From: Teredinibacter purpureus
GTDB lineage: Bacteria; Pseudomonadota; Gammaproteobacteria; Pseudomonadales; Cellvibrionaceae
Direction of reading: 5' to 3'
DNA: 64,000 nucleotides
Assembly: GCF_014217335.1 (NCBI RefSeq)
Contig: NZ_CP060093.1
Location: 1-64,000, forward strand
Shown here: piece by piece, positions 9,122 through 39,290 of the stretch
Layout: each line of letters opens with the position of its first letter
Position numbering within the stretch: position 1 is the stretch's first letter
Made by a program: the position numbers and the translations under genes
The notes under the pieces: model-generated
Databases searched by the model: none
Told to the model about the DNA's origin: nothing
What the model saw: only the letters and a program-made list of their open reading frames with translations

Positions 9122-10528
9122 CTACATGCCGAATGACATTTGAAGGGCGTTATTTCCAGTTTTCGATAGCAATGGATTAAGAATGTTTTTCGCAATCATA
9201 CAACCAATACCTCTCGCATGATTAAACAGTATCGACTGCCCTAACCCTTCATGCGCCAAGGTAGCTGCTGTGTTCTCGATGAGTGTTTCAGGTATACCCT
9301 TTGCCCGACTATGCTCTACCGGCGAGAGTAAACGTTCTTTACCATCTACCCTCGTAATCATTGGTTCCGTTGATCTACGCTTCATGTAGTGCCGTCCAAT
9401 ACAATTTATTGAAGTTGAAACTTCCGAAACAAGGTTCCGCTTAAAGCCTTTGCCGGCATTATCATCACGAACCGCTTTGTCCTTTAAGTATTGGTTATCT
9501 GACCAAGCGCTATCGGGCATATCTGTATTTTCTATGAGCTCTGTTAAGTAACGGTACTGGCGTTCGTAGACAGGGATATCATCAATATATGGCTTATTCA
9601 GACCAATTGAAGTGGCAATCAACCAATACCGTGTACGCTTTTCAAAAGAACCCGCCTGCTTTGCATCAAGGTCTACCTCAAGTAATCCATATCCCAACAA
9701 CTCCAGCATTCCTTTTATTAAACAGTACGTAGCTGAATTTTTCGCATCAACCACATTTTCAGAAACAATAATCGCTGGGTTCACATGCTCAATAACTCGC
9801 ATCAACCCAAAAACAGCGGTTGCATCTGTAGCATGGTTTTCGGCAATAAATTCGGTTTGACCAGATAGGCTCTTGTTTTTAGTCTTTCCGCTTTTTGAGT
9901 GGCCGGTACATGGCAATGACACTTGCAGCAAGTCAACAGGTTCAAGTAGATTCGGTTCCAACTCTTCAAGAGAGGACTCGTAGATAACGGCATCTTTTAA
10001 GATAGGATTATTGTTTTTAGCGATCTGAAGGTACTTGCTCTCTCGGTCAACCACCCAGCTTACGTTTGAATTAACCCCCATTTCGGAAAGCCCCTGATGT
10101 AAGGCTAATGCCGCGACACCGATCCCAGAGCACAATGAGGCTTTTTTGATGCTGTTTTTTTCTGCATTCTGCTTTAAACGCTTTTCTCGTTCTATTCTTT
10201 TGGATGCATGATGATGTATCGATATCCGTATATATCCTTTCGCATAATCCACTCTTACAGATTCTTGGCCTTTGGTTATGGTGACTACCTCTTCGTTACA
10301 GATGTCTACAATCGAAGAGTACCCCTCCCCTTGTTTCTTTCCTGAGACCAAACGGCTTCCGTCCTCATCGAGGATAAGCTCAATAAACCCATAATCCTCG
10401 TCGTAATCTACGCGATACTTTGAGCCTTTATCAAACCCACAGTCACTTAGGCGTAAACCTTGAAGCCAAATGCGTTTTTTCCCTCTATGTGGAGCAACTT
10501 TCGTATATGAATGCTGTAAAAAATGCAT
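9122..10528 (-). CDS. DNA (cytosine-5-)-methyltransferase with N-terminal extension
   Basis: 468 aa from the ATG at 10528 (AGG upstream). It transfers a methyl group from SAM to cytosine C5, protecting or marking DNA. Residues below count from the TTG two codons earlier. Motif I is CSGIG (135-139), motif IV SLPCTGHSKSG has the catalytic Cys-209, motif VI is ENVV (259-262), and KRTRYW (299-304) corresponds to motif VIII. An N-terminal domain of about 110 residues (KRIWLQGLRLSDCGF, VDYDEDYGFIELILDEDG) resembles the extra domain I recall on plasmid and phage C5 enzymes. No restriction enzyme is adjacent, so an orphan protective methylase is likely. Target site unknown. Confidence 0.88.
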   Translation of the reverse strand: MHFLQHSYTKVAPHRGKKRIWLQGLRLSDCGFDKGSKYRVDYDEDYGFIELILDEDGSRLVSGKKQGEGYSSIVDICNEEVVTITKGQESVRVDYAKGYIRISIHHHASKRIEREKRLKQNAEKNSIKKASLCSGIGVAALALHQGLSEMGVNSNVSWVVDRESKYLQIAKNNNPILKDAVIYESSLEELEPNLLEPVDLLQVSLPCTGHSKSGKTKNKSLSGQTEFIAENHATDATAVFGLMRVIEHVNPAIIVSENVVDAKNSATYCLIKGMLELLGYGLLEVDLDAKQAGSFEKRTRYWLIATSIGLNKPYIDDIPVYERQYRYLTELIENTDMPDSAWSDNQYLKDKAVRDDNAGKGFKRNLVSEVSTSINCIGRHYMKRRSTEPMITRVDGKERLLSPVEHSRAKGIPETLIENTAATLAHEGLGQSILFNHARGIGCMIAKNILNPLLSKTGNNALQMSFGM

Positions 10529-10783
10529 AGTCAACCTGCCTCTCTTTTATTCGCAGAAGTTCTTTAACTGATTAGAGAGTTCAAATTAGCCTTAAAATAT
10601 TTTGCAGCAAGTTATGTGGAAACCTTATGTAGGTGCGGCGAAACGAAATATCTTATCTAACGCGCAGCCCAGTAGCGCGAAGGCGTGAAAATGTTTAGAA
10701 AAGTGAAGTTTTAGCTGTAATTTGTTATGTGCCGTGCTTAGCATGACCAAGCCTTTTATAAACCACACCAAAGGAAATTAGAT

Positions 10784-12019: not shown

Positions 12020-12943
12020 CTATATCCACAAAGGGCGTGATTCCCAGTCGACGGGAAAGCCCATCCTGGAGGAATCGATATCGTGTTTTTTTATAAGGTC
12101 TTTTAGGTGTACTTTCCAGTGATGCTCTGGGGCAATCACGTTCATTAAATATAACACCATACTAAAAGTATTGTAGAGCTTCCTTAAGCGCCGATCAGCA
12201 TCTGGCAACACCCAAATACTACTGCGCAATTCGCTTGGCCCGCGCGTTGGTAGTCGCATCTTTTTAGTGATGTCTCGATTCCACAGGCGAGCGTGATGTG
12301 CAGCTATATTCCTCACCAAGGAAAGGTGCTCGCAGAAAGATGTCATCAACGTCTCATCGATACCATAAATATGCGTAATTGCCCTGCGATCCTGTCTTGT
12401 CTTTATGTTTGAAAACCACTTGGAGAGTTGACCCATGGTCATAAGCTCAACAACTGCCCATATCGGGGGCAGTTGTTCCTGATATTTTACTTTTAAATGT
12501 TTTATGAAATCCTCATTACTTTTATCCACTTCTTTTTTCAGATTGCCTATACCCGTCTGATATTTATTAATGTTTTTAAATAGCCTCGGATCGAGATGTG
12601 GGTGTGATGAGCTGTGGCGATGACTTAGGTGATAAGCCATTTGTGTTCTGAGTGACACCTCAATGCGCTCGATAGCATCCATCAACAACAGCCTTAACTC
12701 TCGATCAAAGATATACAGGTTTAACACGTCATCAAACGATGTCCCTGGTTTCACCTGATGAGAAGCATGGCTTTCCTCGAAAGGAAGGCAGTAAGCAGAC
12801 AACCGATAATAATTAATTTGCGATAGATAGAATTCAGCTTTTGCTGGATCTGGAATTATTATACCGTGAGATTCAAGAACCTTAACTTGGTCGCAGAATA
12901 ATCTTGGAGGTTTACTAAAGGGGATTTTGATAGGAGGTGCCAC
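12020..12943 (-). CDS. Abi_2 family abortive infection protein (AbiD/AbiF-like)
   Basis: 307 aa. Abi_2 proteins carry HEPN-type RNase folds and can stop phage growth by shutting down the infected cell. Visible family signs are the N-terminal box FYLSQINYYRLSAYCLPF (38-55), the helix YIFDRELRLLLMDAIERIE (77-95), and the C-terminal RNIAAHHARLWNR (211-223) with the R-x4-H catalytic pattern (Arg-211, His-216). All parts are present, so the gene looks intact. It is oriented away from ParB and flanked by partition-type palindromes. Family assignment is confident; the trigger is unknown. Confidence 0.85.
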   Translation of the reverse strand: MAPPIKIPFSKPPRLFCDQVKVLESHGIIIPDPAKAEFYLSQINYYRLSAYCLPFEESHASHQVKPGTSFDDVLNLYIFDRELRLLLMDAIERIEVSLRTQMAYHLSHRHSSSHPHLDPRLFKNINKYQTGIGNLKKEVDKSNEDFIKHLKVKYQEQLPPIWAVVELMTMGQLSKWFSNIKTRQDRRAITHIYGIDETLMTSFCEHLSLVRNIAAHHARLWNRDITKKMRLPTRGPSELRSSIWVLPDADRRLRKLYNTFSMVLYLMNVIAPEHHWKVHLKDLIKKHDIDSSRMGFPVDWESRPLWI

Positions 12944-13480
12944 TTTTTGTACCCTCCAAAAACGAGTAACCCCTCGCGGTGCGCTGATCTAACGGGAAGC
13001 GGGAGGGGTGTTGTTACCCCCTATTATAGTGGCGCGAACGACTATTGCAACTCTTTCTACCGCTTCTCTTTGCGTCCAGCGAGCGATACCCCTTAACTCT
13101 CAAAATGAATTAGCCCAAATATGGAGAATAGGACGTTACCATCACTTTTCTTACGCTGATCTAACAATCAAAAAGATACGACACTGGTAGGCTTTCTACG
13201 ACACTCCACGGCAAACATCACGAGTTCCGTATCGGAGTGTTCGCCAAGCGTCTAACTACCCAGACTCTACTGGCACCCCCCGTAGCCAGTAATTGCCACG
13301 CCAAAATACGTCATCACACAAAGACGATATCATCTGAACGGTAACGCTGTAGTTACGCCCGATCCGATTAACCCTGTTATAACGACAGGGGGAGGAGAGG
13401 TGTTAAATTGATTTAACGCCTAATTGAGCGATAACTGTGATTAGCCCTAACCCCACCGGAGGAATCATATTTAAAATATT
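12944..13480. other. Intergenic region without recognised gene
   Basis: About 530 bp upstream of the Abi gene. It holds inverted repeats (GTAACCCC near 12970 and GGGG-TTGTTAC near 13005), the repeated octamer-plus GCTGATCTAAC at about 12981 and 13155, and one ParB-type palindrome at 13402. The short ORFs in it do not look coding. Confidence 0.5.
13402..13417. promoter_or_regulatory. ParB-type palindrome, copy 2
   Basis: GTTAAATTGATTTAAC, the same site read from the other strand (centre TG instead of CA). Lies just beyond the 3' end of the gene at 13481-13774. Confidence 0.75.
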
Positions 13481-16133: not shown

Positions 16134-16343
16134 TCAACTGTCTATTCTAGGCGCTAACCACGCCAAATTATTGATTTGAGAATATACTACGGTCATCTTG
16201 CCCTCTGCTAACGCAGCTAATACGACAGATCGGTTTTCTGTTACCGGGTCGATCTGACCGTTTAGTCCGTGCTCCTGAAGTATATATTGTTCGATCAGGC
16301 CATTTAAGGAATCTTGGGATAGGCACTCATACGGAATAAGCAT
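16134..16343 (-). CDS. yheU: UPF0270 / YheU family protein
   Basis: 69 aa. It begins MLIPYECLSQDSLNGLIEQY and continues through an acidic spacer to a VVYSQINN strand and a terminal APR motif, matching the small gammaproteobacterial UPF0270 (YheU) family of about 70 residues. The function of the family is unknown. It is normally chromosomal, so finding it 14 bp behind a plasmid SNF2 helicase gene is unusual and suggests capture from a host. Confidence 0.8.
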   Translation of the reverse strand: MLIPYECLSQDSLNGLIEQYILQEHGLNGQIDPVTENRSVVLAALAEGKMTVVYSQINNLAWLAPRIDS

Positions 16344-16357
16344 ATTTTTATTTAACC

Positions 16358-18112
16358 TCAGATTAACAATAACTGCTCTTCACTTAATCCAATATCAGTG
16401 TCTTCATCCTCATGTTTATCGGCAAAGCTATGATCAATGTCCTTGGATTTAAGATAAGCTTTCGCAAGCTTTTTTATACGCTCCGGATCAGCTTGATAAA
16501 TTTCAACATCTTTTCCTGGATCAACGATCCCATGGCTCTGACTTGATTTGAGACCCAAGACATCAATCAATACAGGGTCAGATCCGAATTCAGTAGCAAC
16601 ATAAAAAACGAAGACCTCGTCTTCTTGACCGTCGCGATCCAATCTCCCTATACATTGCTCATGAACCTTGGGAGACCAATCAAACTCACCGAATACAACT
16701 GTAGAGGATCGATGCTGAATACCATCGGCTCCCGCTCCAGAACGCAGGCTCATAATAAGAATGTCAGACTCACCATTAATAAACGCCTTCTTCGCCCGTT
16801 CCTTCTGGGTAGCAGTCTCTTCTCCTGTGTAGAAGAGTGGATTTAAATCTCTCAACTCCTCTTCCCAAATACGGTACACCTCCCGATGCCAACCGAACAG
16901 TAGGACGGGTTTACCCGTCTCTACCAGCATGCGAACATAACTTGCCGTTGCCTTGGCTTTGACAATACCAGTCATCTGACGCAAGCGCATATCAAACTCT
17001 CGAGCTGCTGACCCTGCTTCCGAAAAAGAACCGGTTAGCGTTGTCATCGCAAGTTGCTTGGCCAAATCTTCTGAATCTTCTACAGCCTTTTCGTTAGGAT
17101 CAACCCATTCAAGATGTGGTGCTGTCTGTTTAGCTTCTTGTCCCACATCTTTTTTAGTCCTCCTAAGAAAAACTAACGATTCACGCAGATAGGCACCTAA
17201 AGCTTTTGGATCTTTTACTATACCCCTTCGGCCGTTATCATCTGTACACCACTCTATCAAAAACTCTTCACGCGTACCTAATAATCTCGGCTTAATCGCT
17301 GCATCAATAATATTGAACGCCTCAATTCCATAATTAAATAAGGGGGTTGCGGTCAAGTCTACCCGTGTATCTATTGTTTGAATAATAGCCTTGGCCGCTG
17401 CCCCTTTCGCAGAAGCGACCCCTGTTCTAAGCTGCTGTATCTCATCAAAAACAATGGACTTAACCCAACCCTGCGACAACACATCAACCCAGCCGGAAAG
17501 TTGCGTATACCGAAAAAGATAAATGTCTGCGCTTGGTAAATCATAAGGACGATTACCTTTTGGGCAGTCAATCCGTAAATTTATAAATGACTCTGCTTTT
17601 TCCTTCCATTGGATTTGTAAGTGAGGCTCAACAACAATAACTACCGGCATAGTATTTGATAGTAAAGCGACGCCAAGCCCTTCATAGGTTTTTCCTAAAC
17701 CAATATCATCAACCAAGATTGCCTGCCTAACCTTCTCAATAAAATCCAAGCCTTGAGACTGATAGAGGCGAAAAGCTTGGCCGGCCAAAAGCCCAGAGCG
17801 GCTATGTGGAACCCAGTCAGGCAGTAATATTTTTTCTGCATCGGACTGAAAGCTGAAAAAAGATTCCGATTGATTGAGAAGGTAATCATAATCTTTAGGA
17901 GTAGTTTGGAGAGGGTAGCGATCCAAAAACCACTTAATATCGGCAGAGGCGTCGTTATTAGCCCTAATAAAAAAAGGCCCCGCTGAATACTTAGGTATTT
18001 TAGGGAACAATTGCTTTAAACGAATTGCGACATGAGGCTCTAGATCACTTAACTCCCAGGCGTCTTCTGTAACCAAATACCTGAGGGCACCATACGTTTT
18101 GCGAATACTCAT
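16358..18112 (-). CDS. SNF2-family helicase (superfamily 2 DNA translocase)
   Basis: 584 aa. Motif I is DDIGLGKT (135-142), motif II is DEIQ (223-226, in place of the usual DEAH), motif III is LTATP, and motif VI is the QCIGRLDRDGQ arginine-finger box, so both RecA-like lobes are complete. An N-terminal part of about 110 residues has no recognised domain. Such ATPases translocate on double-stranded DNA. In phages and plasmids they sit next to small nucleases, as here. The start overlaps the stop of the upstream nuclease gene by 4 bp (ATGA), so the two are translationally coupled. Superfamily is certain; role in recombination, replication or defence is inference. Confidence 0.9.
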   Translation of the reverse strand: MSIRKTYGALRYLVTEDAWELSDLEPHVAIRLKQLFPKIPKYSAGPFFIRANNDASADIKWFLDRYPLQTTPKDYDYLLNQSESFFSFQSDAEKILLPDWVPHSRSGLLAGQAFRLYQSQGLDFIEKVRQAILVDDIGLGKTYEGLGVALLSNTMPVVIVVEPHLQIQWKEKAESFINLRIDCPKGNRPYDLPSADIYLFRYTQLSGWVDVLSQGWVKSIVFDEIQQLRTGVASAKGAAAKAIIQTIDTRVDLTATPLFNYGIEAFNIIDAAIKPRLLGTREEFLIEWCTDDNGRRGIVKDPKALGAYLRESLVFLRRTKKDVGQEAKQTAPHLEWVDPNEKAVEDSEDLAKQLAMTTLTGSFSEAGSAAREFDMRLRQMTGIVKAKATASYVRMLVETGKPVLLFGWHREVYRIWEEELRDLNPLFYTGEETATQKERAKKAFINGESDILIMSLRSGAGADGIQHRSSTVVFGEFDWSPKVHEQCIGRLDRDGQEDEVFVFYVATEFGSDPVLIDVLGLKSSQSHGIVDPGKDVEIYQADPERIKKLAKAYLKSKDIDHSFADKHEDEDTDIGLSEEQLLLI

Positions 18113-18498
18113 TGTAAAAAACCTATACCCAACTGAAGAACCTTTACCGGCTTTCCATTTATACTTGCCGGCATCCCCTGGATTTTACCGGTAGCCAATA
18201 ACAAGCCTTTAACATCCTTATGTTGAAGATACTTTTCACACTGTCGATACACCTCCATTTTGCTCCACGCTTTTCCAGCCTTCACCTCCAATACTAATTG
18301 TGAGCGAGGGAAGTAAAAATCACACACCCCATTTCGACCCAAACAGAATTCTTTTATGTGGTTCACCTTAAACCCTGTCAAAAAAGAGCTGATTTGTTCT
18401 TGGCAGTATTTTTCATCCGAATAATCGAAGCGGCCTGAAGACAAAAGCTTTAGTAGTATATCGAGTGGATCGAGTTCCTTTGATATCGACATAGTCAT
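18109..18498 (-). CDS. Small PD-(D/E)XK nuclease-like protein
   Basis: 129 aa. The core GVCDFYFPRSQLVLEVKAGK supplies the Asp, Glu-Val-Lys arrangement of PD-(D/E)XK nucleases. The following YRQCEKYL helix has the Gln often conserved in this fold, and LLLATGKIQGMP gives the last core strand. The size fits stand-alone nucleases that partner SNF2 helicases. It overlaps its neighbours on both sides by 4 bp. Activity is likely but target is unknown. Confidence 0.75.
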   Translation of the reverse strand: MTMSISKELDPLDILLKLLSSGRFDYSDEKYCQEQISSFLTGFKVNHIKEFCLGRNGVCDFYFPRSQLVLEVKAGKAWSKMEVYRQCEKYLQHKDVKGLLLATGKIQGMPASINGKPVKVLQLGIGFLQ

Positions 18499-18860
18499 AT
18501 TTGATACTCAGGATGCGCGCAAACTATTCGCTTAATCCCATCCCTGAATCGAGAAAGATAATCAAATTTATCGATAACTGTGAGCGACCTTAGTGTCTCT
18601 AGAGTTACATTGAGGCCAAAAGCAATTGGCGTGACAGATATAAGTCGACCACTGTGTAATACCTGAAACTGCGCAAGTGATTTGGGAGCCATAAAAACCA
18701 TATCGGATATTTCGTAGAATCCCCAATCTCCGCCTCTATAGCGAGGATCTACTTTCCTAGCCAGGGCATAGACAGACTGCTCAAAGTGCACCTGATCTCG
18801 CTCTCTAACCAAGTTTCTCAAGGGGCTCTCAGCCAAGAAAATCTCGCGTGCCTCAATCAT
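18495..18860 (-). CDS. Antirestriction protein, ArdB/KlcA family
   Basis: 121 aa. ArdB/KlcA proteins protect incoming plasmid DNA from type I restriction without mimicking DNA. The signature is RGGDWGFYEISDMVFMAP (family form: GGYW-FYE-SNGGFYMAP), followed by a strand pair and a region matching the Ala-rich MSADAAG helix, less conserved here (VTPIAFGLNVTLETL), then a terminal CAHPE. Length matches the family minus a few N-terminal residues. It overlaps the upstream and downstream genes by 4 bp each. The assignment rests on the motif order and is fairly sure. Confidence 0.8.
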   Translation of the reverse strand: MIEAREIFLAESPLRNLVRERDQVHFEQSVYALARKVDPRYRGGDWGFYEISDMVFMAPKSLAQFQVLHSGRLISVTPIAFGLNVTLETLRSLTVIDKFDYLSRFRDGIKRIVCAHPEYQI

Positions 18861-20194
18861 GCTACTTCAACCTTATTACCCGAAATTGGATAATTTGATT
18901 CAACGAGTGCACTCGCCACATTGGGTGATACTGAGTTTCCGCACATCTTGACCTGGTTAGTAGCCGAAATGCGCTTACCGTCTTCATCCCTATCGTGGAT
19001 ATACTCATCATCAAAACCTTGAGCTTTAAATAGTTCCTTTGGAGCAAGCATTCGGAGGCCAATATCCACAACGACGTATTCACCAACAACAACGGCCGCG
19101 GGACGGGGAGAAGGAATAAGCTCATCGCCACAACAGATATCAGAATGATCCTCCATGAATCTAACGACCCACCACGCCATATAACGCTGATCTTCTGTAA
19201 GTCCCTCGACCGAACCTTCAACTTTTTCGCCACCTTTGCTAAGTAGCGTTCTGATTTCTCCTACATGCAACCCACCAGCAGTGATAGTTGAAAGAGGCTC
19301 ATTAAGTGATTGTCCATGCCGGCACGTCCCACGAAGCTTTATAAGGTGGCTTGCTACCAACGAGTGATGATCAACTGCGGTTATAGTTCCTAAGGGATTT
19401 TTAAGTTCATGCCCATACACACCGGTATAGTGCTTTGCCATAAATGCCGTAAGTAATTGCGTTTTCCCACCACCTCCAGCAGTTATGGTTGCCATGGGAG
19501 TATCCGCAGCGTGGCCAACACTTTTACCAAACTGTCTTGCAAAACACGCAGTAACAATACTACTGTTGTTCACGGCGCTCGTGTTGCCATCTTTAGGATC
19601 TTCAACGTTATTACATTGAGGGGCCTTTCTTTGACGATCACCATGGCGGGGGACAAGAAAAGGACTTACTAAGCAATGCTCAGCCTTTGTTGTTATCGTT
19701 GTAAGTGGATTCTCCAATGAATACTGCAGACGATCTTTACCAAAACCTGTCTGGCAGATTCTCGCTAGATAAGGAGTGACTAAACCAAAACGGTTTTCTG
19801 TGGTTTGTGTTGGTAAAGGTCTCTCGAGCGGTAATCCTCGAAATTCACCACTATTCTTCGGACCGTAATAAGAGACTATGAAGGGGTTAGGGCTGTTTAT
19901 AACAAATTTTTCAAGCCCTTTTGCAATTCGTCGAAGGGTATTCGTTGCTAGCGGACGGCGGACGTTGTATTTTTTTGCCTCCTCCTTCGTCAAAAATACA
20001 GAGTAGCAAGGGATAGTCCAATCAATACACTCCGCAGCAGTTCGAATAGGTTTTATAAAAAAACAACCATCGTTCGTTTCTGAGTTAACAAATCCCGAGA
20101 TTAGTTGATTACTCTCAACTAATTCATCTAGAAGAAAAACTGCTGCTTTTTCTAAGGACGCGCGATTCTTCTCGCAATTTAAAATATCTTGCAT
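18857..20194 (-). CDS. C5 DNA methyltransferase-like protein lacking the catalytic half
   Basis: 445 aa, GAGGTTGAT before the ATG. Residues from about 50 match the C-terminal portion of large plasmid cytosine methyltransferases (RRPLATNTLRRIAKGLEKFVI). Five repeats of the type PL-TITA-x(n)-LV then follow, and the end carries LAPKELFKAQGFDDEYI and QVKMCGNSVSPNVASALV, the motif IX-X region. The N-terminal half with motif I (FxGxG) and the catalytic Pro-Cys is absent, and no such half lies upstream. It could be a decayed enzyme, half of a split enzyme, or a DNA-recognition protein reused by the SNF2/nuclease operon. The long intact frame and the 4-bp coupling to ArdB argue that it is expressed. 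Confidence 0.75.
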   Translation of the reverse strand: MQDILNCEKNRASLEKAAVFLLDELVESNQLISGFVNSETNDGCFFIKPIRTAAECIDWTIPCYSVFLTKEEAKKYNVRRPLATNTLRRIAKGLEKFVINSPNPFIVSYYGPKNSGEFRGLPLERPLPTQTTENRFGLVTPYLARICQTGFGKDRLQYSLENPLTTITTKAEHCLVSPFLVPRHGDRQRKAPQCNNVEDPKDGNTSAVNNSSIVTACFARQFGKSVGHAADTPMATITAGGGGKTQLLTAFMAKHYTGVYGHELKNPLGTITAVDHHSLVASHLIKLRGTCRHGQSLNEPLSTITAGGLHVGEIRTLLSKGGEKVEGSVEGLTEDQRYMAWWVVRFMEDHSDICCGDELIPSPRPAAVVVGEYVVVDIGLRMLAPKELFKAQGFDDEYIHDRDEDGKRISATNQVKMCGNSVSPNVASALVESNYPISGNKVEVA

Positions 20195-33681: not shown

Positions 33682-36438
33682 TTACTGGCAGGCATCACAA
33701 TCCTCGTCATTGATACTGCATGCCTTGGGCAGTGATACGGGGTTAACAGCATTGAGGGTACCGGTATTAACGGTGGATTTTTCGGTACTTGTAGCGGCCA
33801 GTGAACGCAAGTAATAGGTAGTCTTTAATCCGAGCATCCAAGCCATGCGATACGTGAGGTCGAGTTTTTTACCATCGGCACCGGCGATATAGATATTTAG
33901 GCTCTGAGCTTGATCCAGCCATTTTTGACGACGACTGGCGGCTTCGATAATCCACTTGGGTTCGACTTCAAAGGCCGTAGCAAACAAGGTCTTGATGTAG
34001 TCGGGAACGCGTTCAATGTTTTTCAACGAACCTTCGTAGTACTTGAGATCGTTTACCATGACGGCATCCCATAGGTCTTCGTCTTTCAGCATCTTGACCA
34101 GGTAAGGATTGATGACCGTGAACTCTCCGGAGAGGTTGGATTTAACAAACAAGTTTTGGTAAGTGGGCTCAATGGATTGGGTCACACCGACAATGTTCGA
34201 TATCGTTGCAGTCGGCGCAATGGCCATGACATTCGAGTTGCGCATACCGGCTTTGGCTTTCTCGCGCAATGCATCCCAGTCCAAGGTCGAAGAGCGATCC
34301 ATCTTCAAGAAATCCTGTCCACGCTCGGCCGCTAACAAATCAATGCTATCGATAGGCAACACCCCTTGGCTCCAAAGTGAGCCTTCAAAGGTTTGATACG
34401 CCCCGCGTTCTTTAGCCAATTCTGCCGAGGCATCGATGGCGGCAAAGCTAACAAGCTCCATAGACAAGTCTGCGAAGGCAACGGCCTGCTCACTGCTGTA
34501 AGGAATCTTCTGAAGGTACAAGGCATCTTGGAACCCCATAATGCCAAGGCCTACTGGTCGATGTTTTTGGTTGGCCTTTTCTGCTTGTGGTACGGCGTAA
34601 TAATTAATATCAATCACATTATCGAGCATACGCACCGCGGTTTTAATGGTGGCATTCAGCTTCTCGCGATCGATACCGTCATCGGAGACGTGTTGAGCAA
34701 GATTGACGGATCCCAGGTTGCACACGGCAATTTCATCGTTACTGGTGTTTAAGGTGATTTCAGTGCATAGATTTGAGCTGTGTACGACACCGACGTGTTG
34801 TTGTGGGCTGCGTAGATTGCAAGGATCTTTAAAGGTAATCCATGGGTGTCCGGTTTCAAAAATCATCCCGAGCATTTTTCGCCATAGCGCCTTGGCGTCA
34901 ATGGTTTTACTTTTGATGTCGCCCGCAGCGGCTTTGGCTTCATATTCTTGATATTTGGCTTCGAAGGCCTTGCCCACTAAATCATGAAGTTCGGGTACCT
35001 GGTTAGGGGAGAACAAAGTCCACGATTCATCGCTAAAAAGACGCTTCATAAACAGATCGGGAATCCAGTTAGCGGTATTCATATCGTGGGTGCGACGTCG
35101 ATCATCACCGGTATTTTTGCGCAGCTCGAGGAACTCCTCGATGTCGAGATGCCAGGATTCGAGATAAGCGCAGACAGCGCCTTTACGTTTACCGCCTTGG
35201 TTCACCGCTACGGCGATATCATTGGCGACTTTCAAGAAGGGTACGACACCTTGAGATTGTCCGTTGGTGCCTTTGATGTGGGCGCCAAGCGCACGTACGG
35301 GAGTCCAGTCATTGCCCAGTCCACCGGCCCATTTAGACAGCATGGCGTTATCGCTCCACGCGCTGGTGATGCCCTTCATATCATCGGGAATGGTGGTGAG
35401 GTAGCAGCTGGACAGCTGGCTGTGTCGGGTACCGGCGTTGAAGAGAGTCGGCGTAGAAGACATGTAGTCGAACGAAGACAGTAAGTTATAGAACTCGATG
35501 GCCCGCAGATTGATATCGTCTTCTTTTAAAGCAAGCCCCATGGCCACACGCATAAAGAAGACCTGAGGAAGCTCAAGGCGTTGGCCCTCATGATGGACAA
35601 AGTAGCGATCGTAAAGAGTTTGTAGACCAAGGTAGGTGAATTGGTTGTCGCGTTCTGGCTTGATGGCTGAACCCAATAGCTCTAAATCAAAGTCGGAAAG
35701 TCTTGAATTAAAAAGCTCTTTATCGATACCAAAATTAATTGCCGCAATTAGATAATCTTCATAACGGAATACCTGACCTGAAATTATACCCAAGGCTTTT
35801 CCGGACTCACGAACAATGGTATTGAGAAGTAACTTAGAAGTAACCAAGCTATAGTTCGGTTCTTCTTCGATTAATGTTCTGCTTTCAATTAACGCTGCAT
35901 TCCAGAGAAGTTCTATATCCATATCTTCATAAGAACTTCTTTTAATACGATCAATAATCAATTCTGCGTCTACGAAATCCAGCTCCTTACATATATCTCG
36001 AACTGCAGTAATAACTGGCGTATTTAGTAAGTCGTAAAAATCATTACCGCTCTTTATTCTTATTCCCGACGAAATTGACTTATATTGTTCACGTTCTCTT
36101 TGGCGTTCTGTTCTGTAAATAACGTAATATCTTGCAACTTGGTGTTCACCAGAACGCATAAGAGCAAGCTCAACTTGGTCTTGAACTTCTTCAATATGAA
36201 TAGTGCCGCCGGAAGGCATTCTGCGGATAAATGTTTCCTGTACTATCTTTGTTGTCTCATCACTTTTATTTTTTAATGCTTGTGATTGATTGGTTAATCC
36301 TCCATTAGCTTGCGGATCCATAAAGGCTTTAGTTATTGCAATACGAATTCTATCAATATCAAAAGGCACTACTTTACCATTTCGTTTTATTACCTGTATT
36401 TCTCCAGGAGTAACAATTCTATTATTTATATCTGTCAT
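33682..36438 (-). CDS. nrdA: Ribonucleoside-diphosphate reductase, class Ia, alpha subunit
   Basis: 918 aa from the ATG at 36438. It reduces ribonucleotides to deoxyribonucleotides together with NrdB. An N-terminal ATP cone (VIKRNGKVVPFDIDRIRIAI) is followed by a second, degenerate cone at about 130-215, as in Pseudomonas NrdA. Active-site boxes are SQLSSCYLTTIPDD, SSNLCTEITLN, AVCNLGSVNLA and PTATISNIVGVTQSIEP, and the C-terminus ends with the redox pair CSINDEDCDAC. No intein is seen. It lies 16 bp after nrdB. The 3' two thirds look more GC-rich than the 5' part, hinting at a recombinant gene. Plasmid RNR could support dNTP supply on entry. Confidence 0.95.
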   Translation of the reverse strand: MTDINNRIVTPGEIQVIKRNGKVVPFDIDRIRIAITKAFMDPQANGGLTNQSQALKNKSDETTKIVQETFIRRMPSGGTIHIEEVQDQVELALMRSGEHQVARYYVIYRTERQREREQYKSISSGIRIKSGNDFYDLLNTPVITAVRDICKELDFVDAELIIDRIKRSSYEDMDIELLWNAALIESRTLIEEEPNYSLVTSKLLLNTIVRESGKALGIISGQVFRYEDYLIAAINFGIDKELFNSRLSDFDLELLGSAIKPERDNQFTYLGLQTLYDRYFVHHEGQRLELPQVFFMRVAMGLALKEDDINLRAIEFYNLLSSFDYMSSTPTLFNAGTRHSQLSSCYLTTIPDDMKGITSAWSDNAMLSKWAGGLGNDWTPVRALGAHIKGTNGQSQGVVPFLKVANDIAVAVNQGGKRKGAVCAYLESWHLDIEEFLELRKNTGDDRRRTHDMNTANWIPDLFMKRLFSDESWTLFSPNQVPELHDLVGKAFEAKYQEYEAKAAAGDIKSKTIDAKALWRKMLGMIFETGHPWITFKDPCNLRSPQQHVGVVHSSNLCTEITLNTSNDEIAVCNLGSVNLAQHVSDDGIDREKLNATIKTAVRMLDNVIDINYYAVPQAEKANQKHRPVGLGIMGFQDALYLQKIPYSSEQAVAFADLSMELVSFAAIDASAELAKERGAYQTFEGSLWSQGVLPIDSIDLLAAERGQDFLKMDRSSTLDWDALREKAKAGMRNSNVMAIAPTATISNIVGVTQSIEPTYQNLFVKSNLSGEFTVINPYLVKMLKDEDLWDAVMVNDLKYYEGSLKNIERVPDYIKTLFATAFEVEPKWIIEAASRRQKWLDQAQSLNIYIAGADGKKLDLTYRMAWMLGLKTTYYLRSLAATSTEKSTVNTGTLNAVNPVSLPKACSINDEDCDACQ

Positions 36439-36454
36439 ATGGTTCACCACTAAA

Positions 36455-37603
36455 TTAATTATCCCAGTTCAGGCTTCCGCCAGTTTGATATTCAACGACA
36501 CGAGTCTCAAAAAAGTTTTTTTCTTTCCGAAGATCCATAATTTCACTCATCCACGGGAACGGATTTTTGGCTCCCTTGTATTCTTCAGTAAGGCCTAATT
36601 GAGAAAGACGTCTATTAGCAATAAAATTTAGGTAGTCTTCCATTACTGAAGCGTTCATGCCAAGTACACCGCGAGGCATTGAGTCTCGAGCATATTCAAT
36701 CTCGAGTTCCATTCCTTCCAAAATCATTGCTCTGGCATCATGTTGAAATTCTAGAGTCCATAGTTCTGGATTTTCTATTTTAATTTGATTAATAACATCG
36801 ATACCGAAATTTAGATGCATGGACTCATCACGCAGGATGTACTGAAATTGTTCAGCAACACCCGTCATTTTGTTTTGTCGACCCATTGAAAGAATTTGTG
36901 TGAAACCACAATAGAAAAATATGCCTTCGGTAACAGCATAAAATGCTATCAGGTTACGAAGGAGTTCTTGATTTTTTTCGATTGTGCCGGTGTTGAAATT
37001 GGGATCCGAGATACCGCGCGTATGTTTTATAGACCATGCAGCTTTCTTGGCTACGGAAGGAACCTCACGATACATATTGAAAACCTTGCCTTCATCCATG
37101 CTTAGAGATTCGACACAGTATTGATATGCATGTGTATGAATAGCTTCTTCGAAGGCTTGCCGTAATAAGTATTGACGGCATTCAGGGTTTGTAATCAATC
37201 GGTAAATAGCCAAAACAAGGTTGTTGGCCACTAGTGAATCCGCTGATGAAAAATATCCTAAAGATCGTTCTATAATTAATCGCTCGTCGTAGGTCAGTCC
37301 AGTTTCTGATTTCCATAAAGCAATATCTTTCGACATATTTACTTCTTGAGGCATCCAGTGATTTGAGCAACCGTCTAGATATTTCTGCCAAGCCCAGTCA
37401 TATTTAAATGGAACAAGTTGGTTTAAGTCTGCCCGGCAATTAATCATTTTTTTATCGTCTACTTGAACTCGGGCGGCTCCTAGCTCTACTTCGTGAATAG
37501 TAGCTTTTGTTTTTACATCCTTTTCGCTGTTTTCTATGCGCTCGTGTAAATCTAACGCGCTGGTATCCAGTGCGTTAATGTCATTGTCATCCCAGTTCAA
37601 CAT
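36455..37603 (-). CDS. nrdB: Ribonucleoside-diphosphate reductase, class Ia, beta subunit
   Basis: 382 aa from the ATG at 37603 with GAGG eight bases upstream. NrdB holds the diiron-tyrosyl radical. [12 protein letters not shown] carries the Glu/His iron ligands and the radical Tyr, EGIFFYCGF a second Glu and [10 protein letters not shown] the last Glu/His. The C-terminal tail (GGSLNWDN) is the expected NrdA-docking end. It is the first gene of the pair, reading away from the origin region. No NrdR box was recognised upstream. Confidence 0.95.
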
Positions 37604-37811
37604 GTGCATCACCTCAAATATTTTGTTAGGTCAGCTTTGAACGTACAACAATAGAATATGATGCGAAACTGAAAGGTGCTTAAACAGAAAGGTTGGCCAC
37701 ATATATGCAGCAAAACGGCAGGAAGGAGGTATTTGATGAGGTTGGAATAGTTAAATGAGAGGTGGATTAAAAGAAGTTTATTAAATTAAATGCAACATAT
37801 AAAAGGCAAAA

Positions 37812-39290
37812 TCATTTGTCTTGAGAGCCAAAATCAAACTGTGGCTGCATTTTTTTTTGAGCTAATAGTTTGTTGTGGAGAGATCTATCGCCGATAATTT
37901 CATCTGATTTATCTCTAAATACATCAAACATAAAATCGTATGACATATGTGGTTCTACTTCAGCAATATAGCCAAAAATGTTAATTCTATTCTTACACCC
38001 ATCAATCCAACGATGTCCAGATTTTTCATGATGTCTTTTTAGTGCAGGAATAAAACGGTCTCGAAAATTCTCATAACTTGCGGCCGGTATCATGAAATTT
38101 TTCAAGTCGGGAAGGGTTATCGTTCTTTTTATTCGGCCTGAACGTTTAATATGAATAGAGCACCATGAATAAAAGATGTGTATCAATCCTGATGACGTTT
38201 TCAAAATTTCTTTGTTGTCGATAAAAGTTGAAATTACATCGGGGTCAATTAAATCCGCAAATGTTTTAGAGTGTAATGCAATACGGTACCATCTAGGTCG
38301 ACGAATACCTCGTCCACCGTATTCACGATCAATGCTTGAGTCGAGTTCTGTAAGGAACCGGAAATTTAAATCATCAGCACCTGGAGTTAACCCAAATTGT
38401 TTAGCAAACTGGCTACCAGCTTCGCTATCTGCGTCAATAATCACATTGAAATTGGTGCTGTATAGCCGTTTCATTGAATCTCTTATCGTGTCCCGGTTGG
38501 CTCCAGATCCATCTAGTCCCATCAGCGACAGTAGATCGACTATATCCACAAAAAATTCGTTCTTAATGTCTTTTCCGAGATCAGATTGTTCGGCTATTAA
38601 AATACAAACAAGTGTAATTATATTACGGATAGTTCTCTGGTCATCAACATGGCATATTTCGCTGTCTGATTGGGCTGAGGTGATGATTTCAATTTTGTCA
38701 CTGCCAAAACGATATATGGTGGAAAATGGCTCCGTTCTTCTAGGGTCTGTTCTTGAAACCCGCATGCAGGATCCGAAAACTCCGTTCCATAATCTTTCTG
38801 ATCTTGCTAATCGAACTGGGAGGCTAGTATCTAAAATTTGTGAATCGCCCTCTATTAACAAGGTTTTGATATCTTTTAATTTCTGACGGTGTGGACGATG
38901 GTCTTTGAATTCACTTTTTTTCGCCGGTACATTAAGGACGTCGGTTGCATCCTGGAGGACAAACAGGTCGGCGGGCTTACATTTTGGTCTTTGGTATTTT
39001 TCTTTTTTGAATAAGCCAATATCCGCTAAAGTGGCGGAGCGCTTTTTCATGATTGTTATGCCACATCCGATATTTTTTTCGCTTAGCCACTCTTGTAATT
39101 GCGAGCGGGTAACATCAAATGTCTGATTTTCAGTCTCAGATGAGTTTTCAAGAGTTGAGCATAGTTCGAGCAAGCCAAGTAAAAATTTAGATTCAATCGG
39201 GGAAAGGCAGTCTAAGGCAGCGTAGATTTTCATTTGCCCTAAATGACGTATTTTAACCCGATAAATCGAGCCTTCTGATTTTGAAGACAT
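37812..39290 (-). CDS. Plasmid replication initiator (iteron-binding, winged-helix type)
   Basis: 492 aa. It probably binds the iterons upstream of its start and opens the origin. Two helix-rich halves with winged-helix character are visible: about 25-100 (SPIESKFLLGLLELCS, FDVTRSQLQEWLSE) and 340-430 (SSGLIHIFYSWCSIHIKRSG, TITLPDLKNFMI). The C-terminal half looks like the RepA/TrfA class, though I cannot place it in a named family. Identity rests mainly on context: a regular iteron array and DnaA box start about 350 bp upstream. AGG precedes the ATG. Binding to the iterons would also autoregulate. Confidence 0.8.
   Translation of the reverse strand: MSSKSEGSIYRVKIRHLGQMKIYAALDCLSPIESKFLLGLLELCSTLENSSETENQTFDVTRSQLQEWLSEKNIGCGITIMKKRSATLADIGLFKKEKYQRPKCKPADLFVLQDATDVLNVPAKKSEFKDHRPHRQKLKDIKTLLIEGDSQILDTSLPVRLARSERLWNGVFGSCMRVSRTDPRRTEPFSTIYRFGSDKIEIITSAQSDSEICHVDDQRTIRNIITLVCILIAEQSDLGKDIKNEFFVDIVDLLSLMGLDGSGANRDTIRDSMKRLYSTNFNVIIDADSEAGSQFAKQFGLTPGADDLNFRFLTELDSSIDREYGGRGIRRPRWYRIALHSKTFADLIDPDVISTFIDNKEILKTSSGLIHIFYSWCSIHIKRSGRIKRTITLPDLKNFMIPAASYENFRDRFIPALKRHHEKSGHRWIDGCKNRINIFGYIAEVEPHMSYDFMFDVFRDKSDEIIGDRSLHNKLLAQKKMQPQFDFGSQDK

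Follow-up and report, generated by a model that had tools for sequence, protein, structure and literature searches.

The first 64 kb of contig NZ_CP060093.1 of Teredinibacter purpureus (hereafter the window) contain four consecutive minus-strand open reading frames (ORFs), here called genes A, B, C and D, which encode proteins of 445, 121, 129 and 584 amino acids (aa), respectively, and together span positions 16358-20194. On balance, we lean towards understanding this locus as a mosaic plasmid operon, in which a motor-nuclease core for the processing of mobile-element DNA, encoded by C and D, stands behind two counter-restriction genes, B and a truncated A. The C-D pair is a widespread phage and plasmid unit, and its near-constant adjacency, its overlap and its natural fusions mark it as a real one. 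The parts are ordinary and their order is unusual; the toolkit looks borrowed and partly decayed rather than like one new four-part machine, and it raises the question of whether the pair is gated by methylation.

The genes and their overlaps are as follows:
Gene A: 18857..20194, minus strand, 445 aa; C5-cytosine methyltransferase of the phage type, reduced to its C-terminal part with the recognition repeats and motifs IX/X and without a catalytic half
A/B overlap: 18857..18860, minus strand, ATGA, 4 bp
Gene B: 18495..18860, minus strand, 121 aa; divergent, shortened ArdB/KlcA-like protein
B/C overlap: 18495..18498, minus strand, ATGA, 4 bp
Gene C: 18109..18498, minus strand, 129 aa; predicted minimal PD-(D/E)XK nuclease, partner of D
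C/D overlap: 18109..18112, minus strand, ATGA, 4 bp; shared by 95 of 123 C-D pairs from other loci
Gene D: 16358..18112, minus strand, 584 aa; SNF2-type translocase

An initial annotation of this DNA had described four genes joined by exact 4-bp ATGA overlaps, and the ORF coordinates agree with it in each of the three places.

A widespread nuclease-translocase pair

The assignment of D as an SNF2 translocase, already made in the initial annotation, holds: the protein matches SNF2-rel_dom (PF00176) above the cut-off with an E-value of 1.5e-11 and PHROG 62 ('DNA helicase') with 8.7e-70, reaches 23.4 bits for PF00271, barely under the cut-off of 23.5, and shows the Walker A (GLGKT), DExQ and GRxxRxGQ motifs in the alignment. 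C had been called a small PD-(D/E)XK nuclease, and here too the follow-up agrees. Its predicted model is confident and has the restriction-enzyme (PD-(D/E)XK) fold, the residues E29, E50, D60, E71, K73, Q86 and Y90 are identical in all 68 aligned sequences, and the core fold together with the D...ExK active site places C in this class of nucleases.

The linkage of the two genes was followed through 169 loci, a set that leans to close relatives of D and consists of the best 80 of 324 from genome contigs, the best 80 of at least 493 from viral contigs and nine found earlier (five plasmid, four viral). A match to D was present in 167 of them, 153 kept D after a mechanical choice of ORFs, and 133 were distinct once loci whose D proteins have the same final 300 residues had been merged, a rule under which near-identical loci may remain among the 133. 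C lies upstream of D in 123 of these 133 non-redundant loci and is fused to it in four. Exact 4-bp overlaps join C and D in 95 of the 123 pairs, which argues that the overlap seen in the window is more than chance. Records carrying D-type loci are named as proteobacteria, bacteroidetes, actinobacteria and others. Closer to the host, C was found only in the organism's own genome among 144 genomes of its family, while D has matches in 85 of 293 genomes of its order, its own included, the best of the others having 29% identity in a frame of 1,102 aa. As a single query, C recovered no viral locus, whereas the alignment of D did.

C-D is a real motor-nuclease pair that has apparently been under-described. 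Neither the pair nor the methylase-C-D cassette discussed below is named in the titles and abstract openings listed by a literature search, which covered open-licence papers and is no proof of novelty. A separate arrangement was seen in one of the loci, where a 629-aa ORF (L084:4112-6001, plus strand), helicase-like in its first part and continuing in frame into a C-family nuclease domain, lies directly upstream of D.

A truncated methyltransferase and an ArdB-like protein

Gene A matches PF00145 over profile positions 270-320 of 324 only, with 24.5 bits at a cut-off of 22. The patterns for motif I, for the catalytic Cys motif and for ENV fail on A and hold in seven of the seven relatives checked; motifs I, IV and VI are missing, and the motif check finds motif X and five P[LM]xT[IQ]T repeats retained. 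These repeats we take, by analogy with multispecific C5 methylases, to be target-recognition modules. By these patterns and by its PF00145 coverage, A falls outside the active C5-cytosine methyltransferases and is probably inactive as a methylase, in keeping with its first description as a methyltransferase-like protein without its catalytic half.

A protein search gave 7,882 matches in all, and the 119 relatives among the matches listed, A itself aside, have lengths of 395-730 aa. A resembles orphan C5 methyltransferases of the phage type that carry many recognition repeats, at up to 79% identity across 89% of its length (the closest of the matches listed, with 630 aa), and differs from them in that they possess the catalytic half. 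The sole relative shorter than A among the matches listed is P0015, with 395 aa on a contig of 1,702 bp. In the alignment, A begins anew at the point where the catalytic half of its relatives has ended, and its residues 1-48 (20194-20051) match nothing but A itself in the sequences searched.

The missing half has left no remnant anywhere on the plasmid (best E-value 0.56). A split C5 methyltransferase was rejected, since the genome holds no lone N-terminal half and the plasmid no remnant of one. A frameshift hiding this half just 5' of A was likewise rejected: ahead of the ATG the frame stays open for no more than 13 codons (458 versus 445 aa), and no remnant was found. The host genome carries two other PF00145 genes, which cover positions 1-322 and 2-319 of the 324 in the profile, and across 293 genomes of the host's order A has matches in 19, its own included. 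A second C5 methyltransferase gene of the same plasmid lies at 9122-10534 of the window (minus strand) and covers PF00145 positions 2-319 of 324. The nearest relatives of A are full enzymes. A is more plausibly what is left of a complete methyltransferase than a subunit made for recognition, since P0004, a relative that keeps the catalytic motifs, may lie beside the close relative of B (see below).

The protein encoded by B resembles ArdB weakly. It matches PF03230 (antirestriction) with an E-value of 1.4e-4, but its 22.4 bits lie under the cut-off of 25; the KlcA structure entry 2kmg and the PHROG anti-restriction family are matched with E-values of 0.0024 and 0.012, and PADLOC gave no match. 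B has the YxGGxW core of ArdB/KlcA in common with that family and differs from it by the Pfam score below the cut-off and by a 13-residue gap ahead of the core. Six distant relatives, found in further genomes of the order and the family to which the host belongs, could be aligned; five of them have a C-terminal extension that is missing in B. In a search of 5.8 billion proteins, one other protein passes (P0122, 88% identity). B had no match in the plasmids searched, none was confirmed in the viral contigs searched, and no relative of B was found in the 169 C-D loci (best E-value with a hidden Markov model 0.26); these searches lend no support to B as a common partner of C-D.

The longest contig is 3,682 bp for both P0004 and P0122, the close relative of B, and from this shared figure the two may be neighbours. 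Likewise, the longest contig is 75,423 bp for both P0002, a complete methylase, and P0126, a relative of C with 67% identity.

Possible roles of the operon

The genes that accompany C-D were tallied at the positions -1 (directly upstream), +1 (downstream) and -2 (one gene further upstream) in 113, 107 and 102 loci, respectively, in which a plus-strand ORF of 70 aa or more was in reach; the Pfam tallies cover the 25 commonest families at an E-value of 1e-4, and a single protein can be counted under two methylase families. The beta clamp is the -1 neighbour in 5 of 113 loci, and further direct neighbours are RdgC, DnaA, FtsK-gamma, DprA, DnaB, primase-type domains, ERF and a 5'-3' exonuclease. 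Apart from the methylases treated below, the neighbours are early genes of phages and proteins of replication or recombination. This company fits a role of the pair in replication or recombination. Moreover, at least 93 of the 113 C-D pairs have no methylase as their direct upstream neighbour, which argues for a task independent of methylation.

In the mosaic operon that we favour, D would move along double-stranded DNA driven by ATP and C would cut. The substrate of the pair would most likely be branched or stalled DNA, such as arises when the mobile element recombines or replicates. As an orphan cytosine methyltransferase, A would formerly have marked the element's own DNA and since have lost its catalytic half, and A together with the ArdB-like B in front of C-D would be of the counter-restriction type. 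The truncated gene may have been kept for its frame, through which the translation of B, C and D would be coupled, or for repeats that retain DNA binding. The methylases and, here, the ArdB-like gene look like counter-restriction additions to a standing C-D pair.

Several observations weigh against this account. Methylases stand at -1 in at most 20 of 113 loci (C5 methylase in 9, N6/N4 methylase in 7, N6 methylase in 2, Dam in 1 and MT-A70 in 1), compared with 4 of 107 at +1 and 7 of 102 at -2, an excess that a plain recombination role does not predict. One-sided Fisher tests gave p values of 0.0007-0.0036 against +1 and of 0.013-0.045 against -2, the higher values being those for 17 instead of 20, and a motif-based count, which is blind to the N6/N4 class at -1, found methylases in 7 of 122 at -1 and in 17 of 985 at nine other positions (p 0.012). 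Pfam gives no match for C, VRR-NUC included, and structurally the protein comes closest to restriction enzymes. The intact 445-codon reading frame of A could mean continued selection. Finally, the predicted model of B, built from only two sequences, has a confidence (predicted local distance difference test, pLDDT) of 44 and is too poor for a comparison of folds.

The recurrent methylases and the fold of C are what a restriction-like cassette of mobile elements would lead one to expect, in which the methylase marks self, C-D destroys unmarked DNA, whether of the host chromosome or of a rival phage or plasmid, and the window copy is a relic with a dead methylase. Methylases of the C5, N6/N4 and other classes recur directly before C-D beyond both control positions, the C5 family of A occurs somewhere in 13 of 133 loci, and two Pseudomonas plasmids carry methylase, C and D in this order with 4-bp overlaps. 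A complete cassette of this kind also occurs in Luteimonas (L099). Nonetheless, the great majority of pairs have no adjoining methylase, and if the methylase is dead, a nuclease that is active and gated by methylation should damage the host unless the mark came from elsewhere. We regard this cassette as improbable, if the most serious of the alternatives.

Second in rank, and improbable as well, is a DarB-like counter-restriction set, in which D would translocate on entering DNA and displace or block restriction complexes, the methylase and the ArdB-like protein would form further layers, and C would be an accessory nuclease. In phages and plasmids, coupling of SNF2 ATPases with adenine methylases is widespread, and DarB of phage P1 protects DNA from type I enzymes (PMC5512222). 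The ArdB family, which B resembles, is proposed to act on type I enzymes by blocking their translocation (PMC10149784), and if this holds, an ArdB-like gene beside a translocase would make sense. Against such a set, the constant partner of D in the loci studied is a nuclease and not a methylase, no large DarB-like protein was seen in the operon, and B's membership of the ArdB family is weak.

It is quite unlikely, in our estimate, that methylase, nuclease and SNF2 protein form an undescribed cassette attacking DNA without the element's mark which here, with the methylase reduced to targeting repeats and an ArdB-like brake on the translocase, has become a restriction-like system without a methylase. 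The four-protein complex proposed in the initial annotation, with A as a methylase-free recognition subunit that targets the C-D cutting machine and B as its regulator, is the least probable of all, for despite three successive ATGA overlaps, the five recognition-type repeats and the intact frame of A, the A-B-C-D order recurs in none of the other loci examined, no relative of B was found in the 169 C-D loci, and complete methylases such as P0004 are the rule among the relatives of A. That interpretation is therefore supported in part: C-D as a unit and the recurring order methylase-C-D stand, and the complex of all four proteins lacks support. The refuting outcome named in the initial annotation, a gene order without conservation anywhere, applies to the full set of four but neither to C-D nor to methylase-C-D.

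A small nuclease without a Pfam family emerges as the near-constant partner of a phage and plasmid SNF2 motor, with natural fusions and recurrent DNA-methylase neighbours. If C-D processes junctions, a gap in the recombination of mobile elements would be filled; should methylation gate the pair, the parasites would have a restriction-like weapon of their own. The window copy, whose methylase lacks the catalytic half, helps to tell the two apart, and the cassette of methylase, nuclease and translocase is the part worth testing.

The plasmid and known systems

The contig of 249,467 bp, one of two in a genome of 4.89 Mb, encodes an RctB-like initiator, ParB, a TrbI-like conjugation protein and two large ribonucleotide reductase subunits, and for these reasons we call it a plasmid. 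Phage structural families were absent among the 30 contig proteins scanned with Pfam, which amount to a partial annotation. A scan yielded 11 promoter-like sites (14.2 in shuffles) and 6 terminator-like sites (4.6 in shuffles). Directly 3' of D lies a UPF0270 (YheU-like) gene (window 16134-16343, minus strand). The window further contains the RctB-like replication initiator (37812-39290, minus strand; PF11826, E-value 2.6e-8), whose family is described for Vibrionales, large and small subunit genes of ribonucleotide reductase (33682-37612, minus strand) and an AbiD-like abortive-infection gene (12020-13015, minus strand; PADLOC AbiD, E-value 2.6e-76). The 72 bp 5' of the latter have 89-92% identity to sequence in 15 Salmonella plasmid records, some of it annotated there as Abi family protein. 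Elsewhere on the plasmid lie a second large-subunit gene of ribonucleotide reductase (L258:5643-8423), a gene for a protein of 2,131 aa in which a TrbI-like conjugation domain is confined to the C-terminus (L255:6938-13333, minus strand) and an ORF of 4,743 codons (L256:1433-15664, plus strand).

Among described defence systems, DISARM, Zorya and Dpd were rejected, as the similarity of D to ZorD, DpdE and DrmD and of A to DrmMII goes no further than partial matches to these families; the ten nearby window proteins scanned for the core genes of these systems gave AbiD and the second C5 methylase only. Type I or III restriction-modification does not apply to an operon without an active methylase.

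The nearest described counter-restriction parallel is the DarB-type SNF2-methylase dyad of polyvalent proteins (PMC5512222), in which mobile elements likewise bring an SNF2 ATPase and a DNA methylase close together within a counter-restriction theme. In contrast to that dyad, the constant partner is here a nuclease, the motor is a separate protein of 584 aa, and the methylase is of the C5 type and lacks its catalytic half. For the C-D pair itself, a parallel is offered by phages which, like C-D, combine an SNF2-type motor with a small PD-(D/E)XK nuclease: the DNA-metabolism genes of the lytic phage phiEap-2 include one for an SNF2 helicase and one for a VRR-NUC protein (PMC4913238), and ZP6 is a further case (PMC8515928). 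Going by these sources, gp47 and gp51 of phiEap-2 and ORF32 and ORF20 of ZP6 are not direct neighbours, unlike C and D, and VRR-NUC (PF08774) is not among the 23 families matched at an E-value of 0.1 by any of the 68 C-family members. Stand-alone VRR-Nuc proteins cleave four-way junctions (PMC4103454), and the parallel with these phages and with junction-cutting nucleases is in line with a role of C-D in recombination or replication. The archaeal helicase-nuclease XPB-Bax1 also resembles C-D in its plan of a small nuclease paired with a translocase (PMC7293015, PMC7672443).

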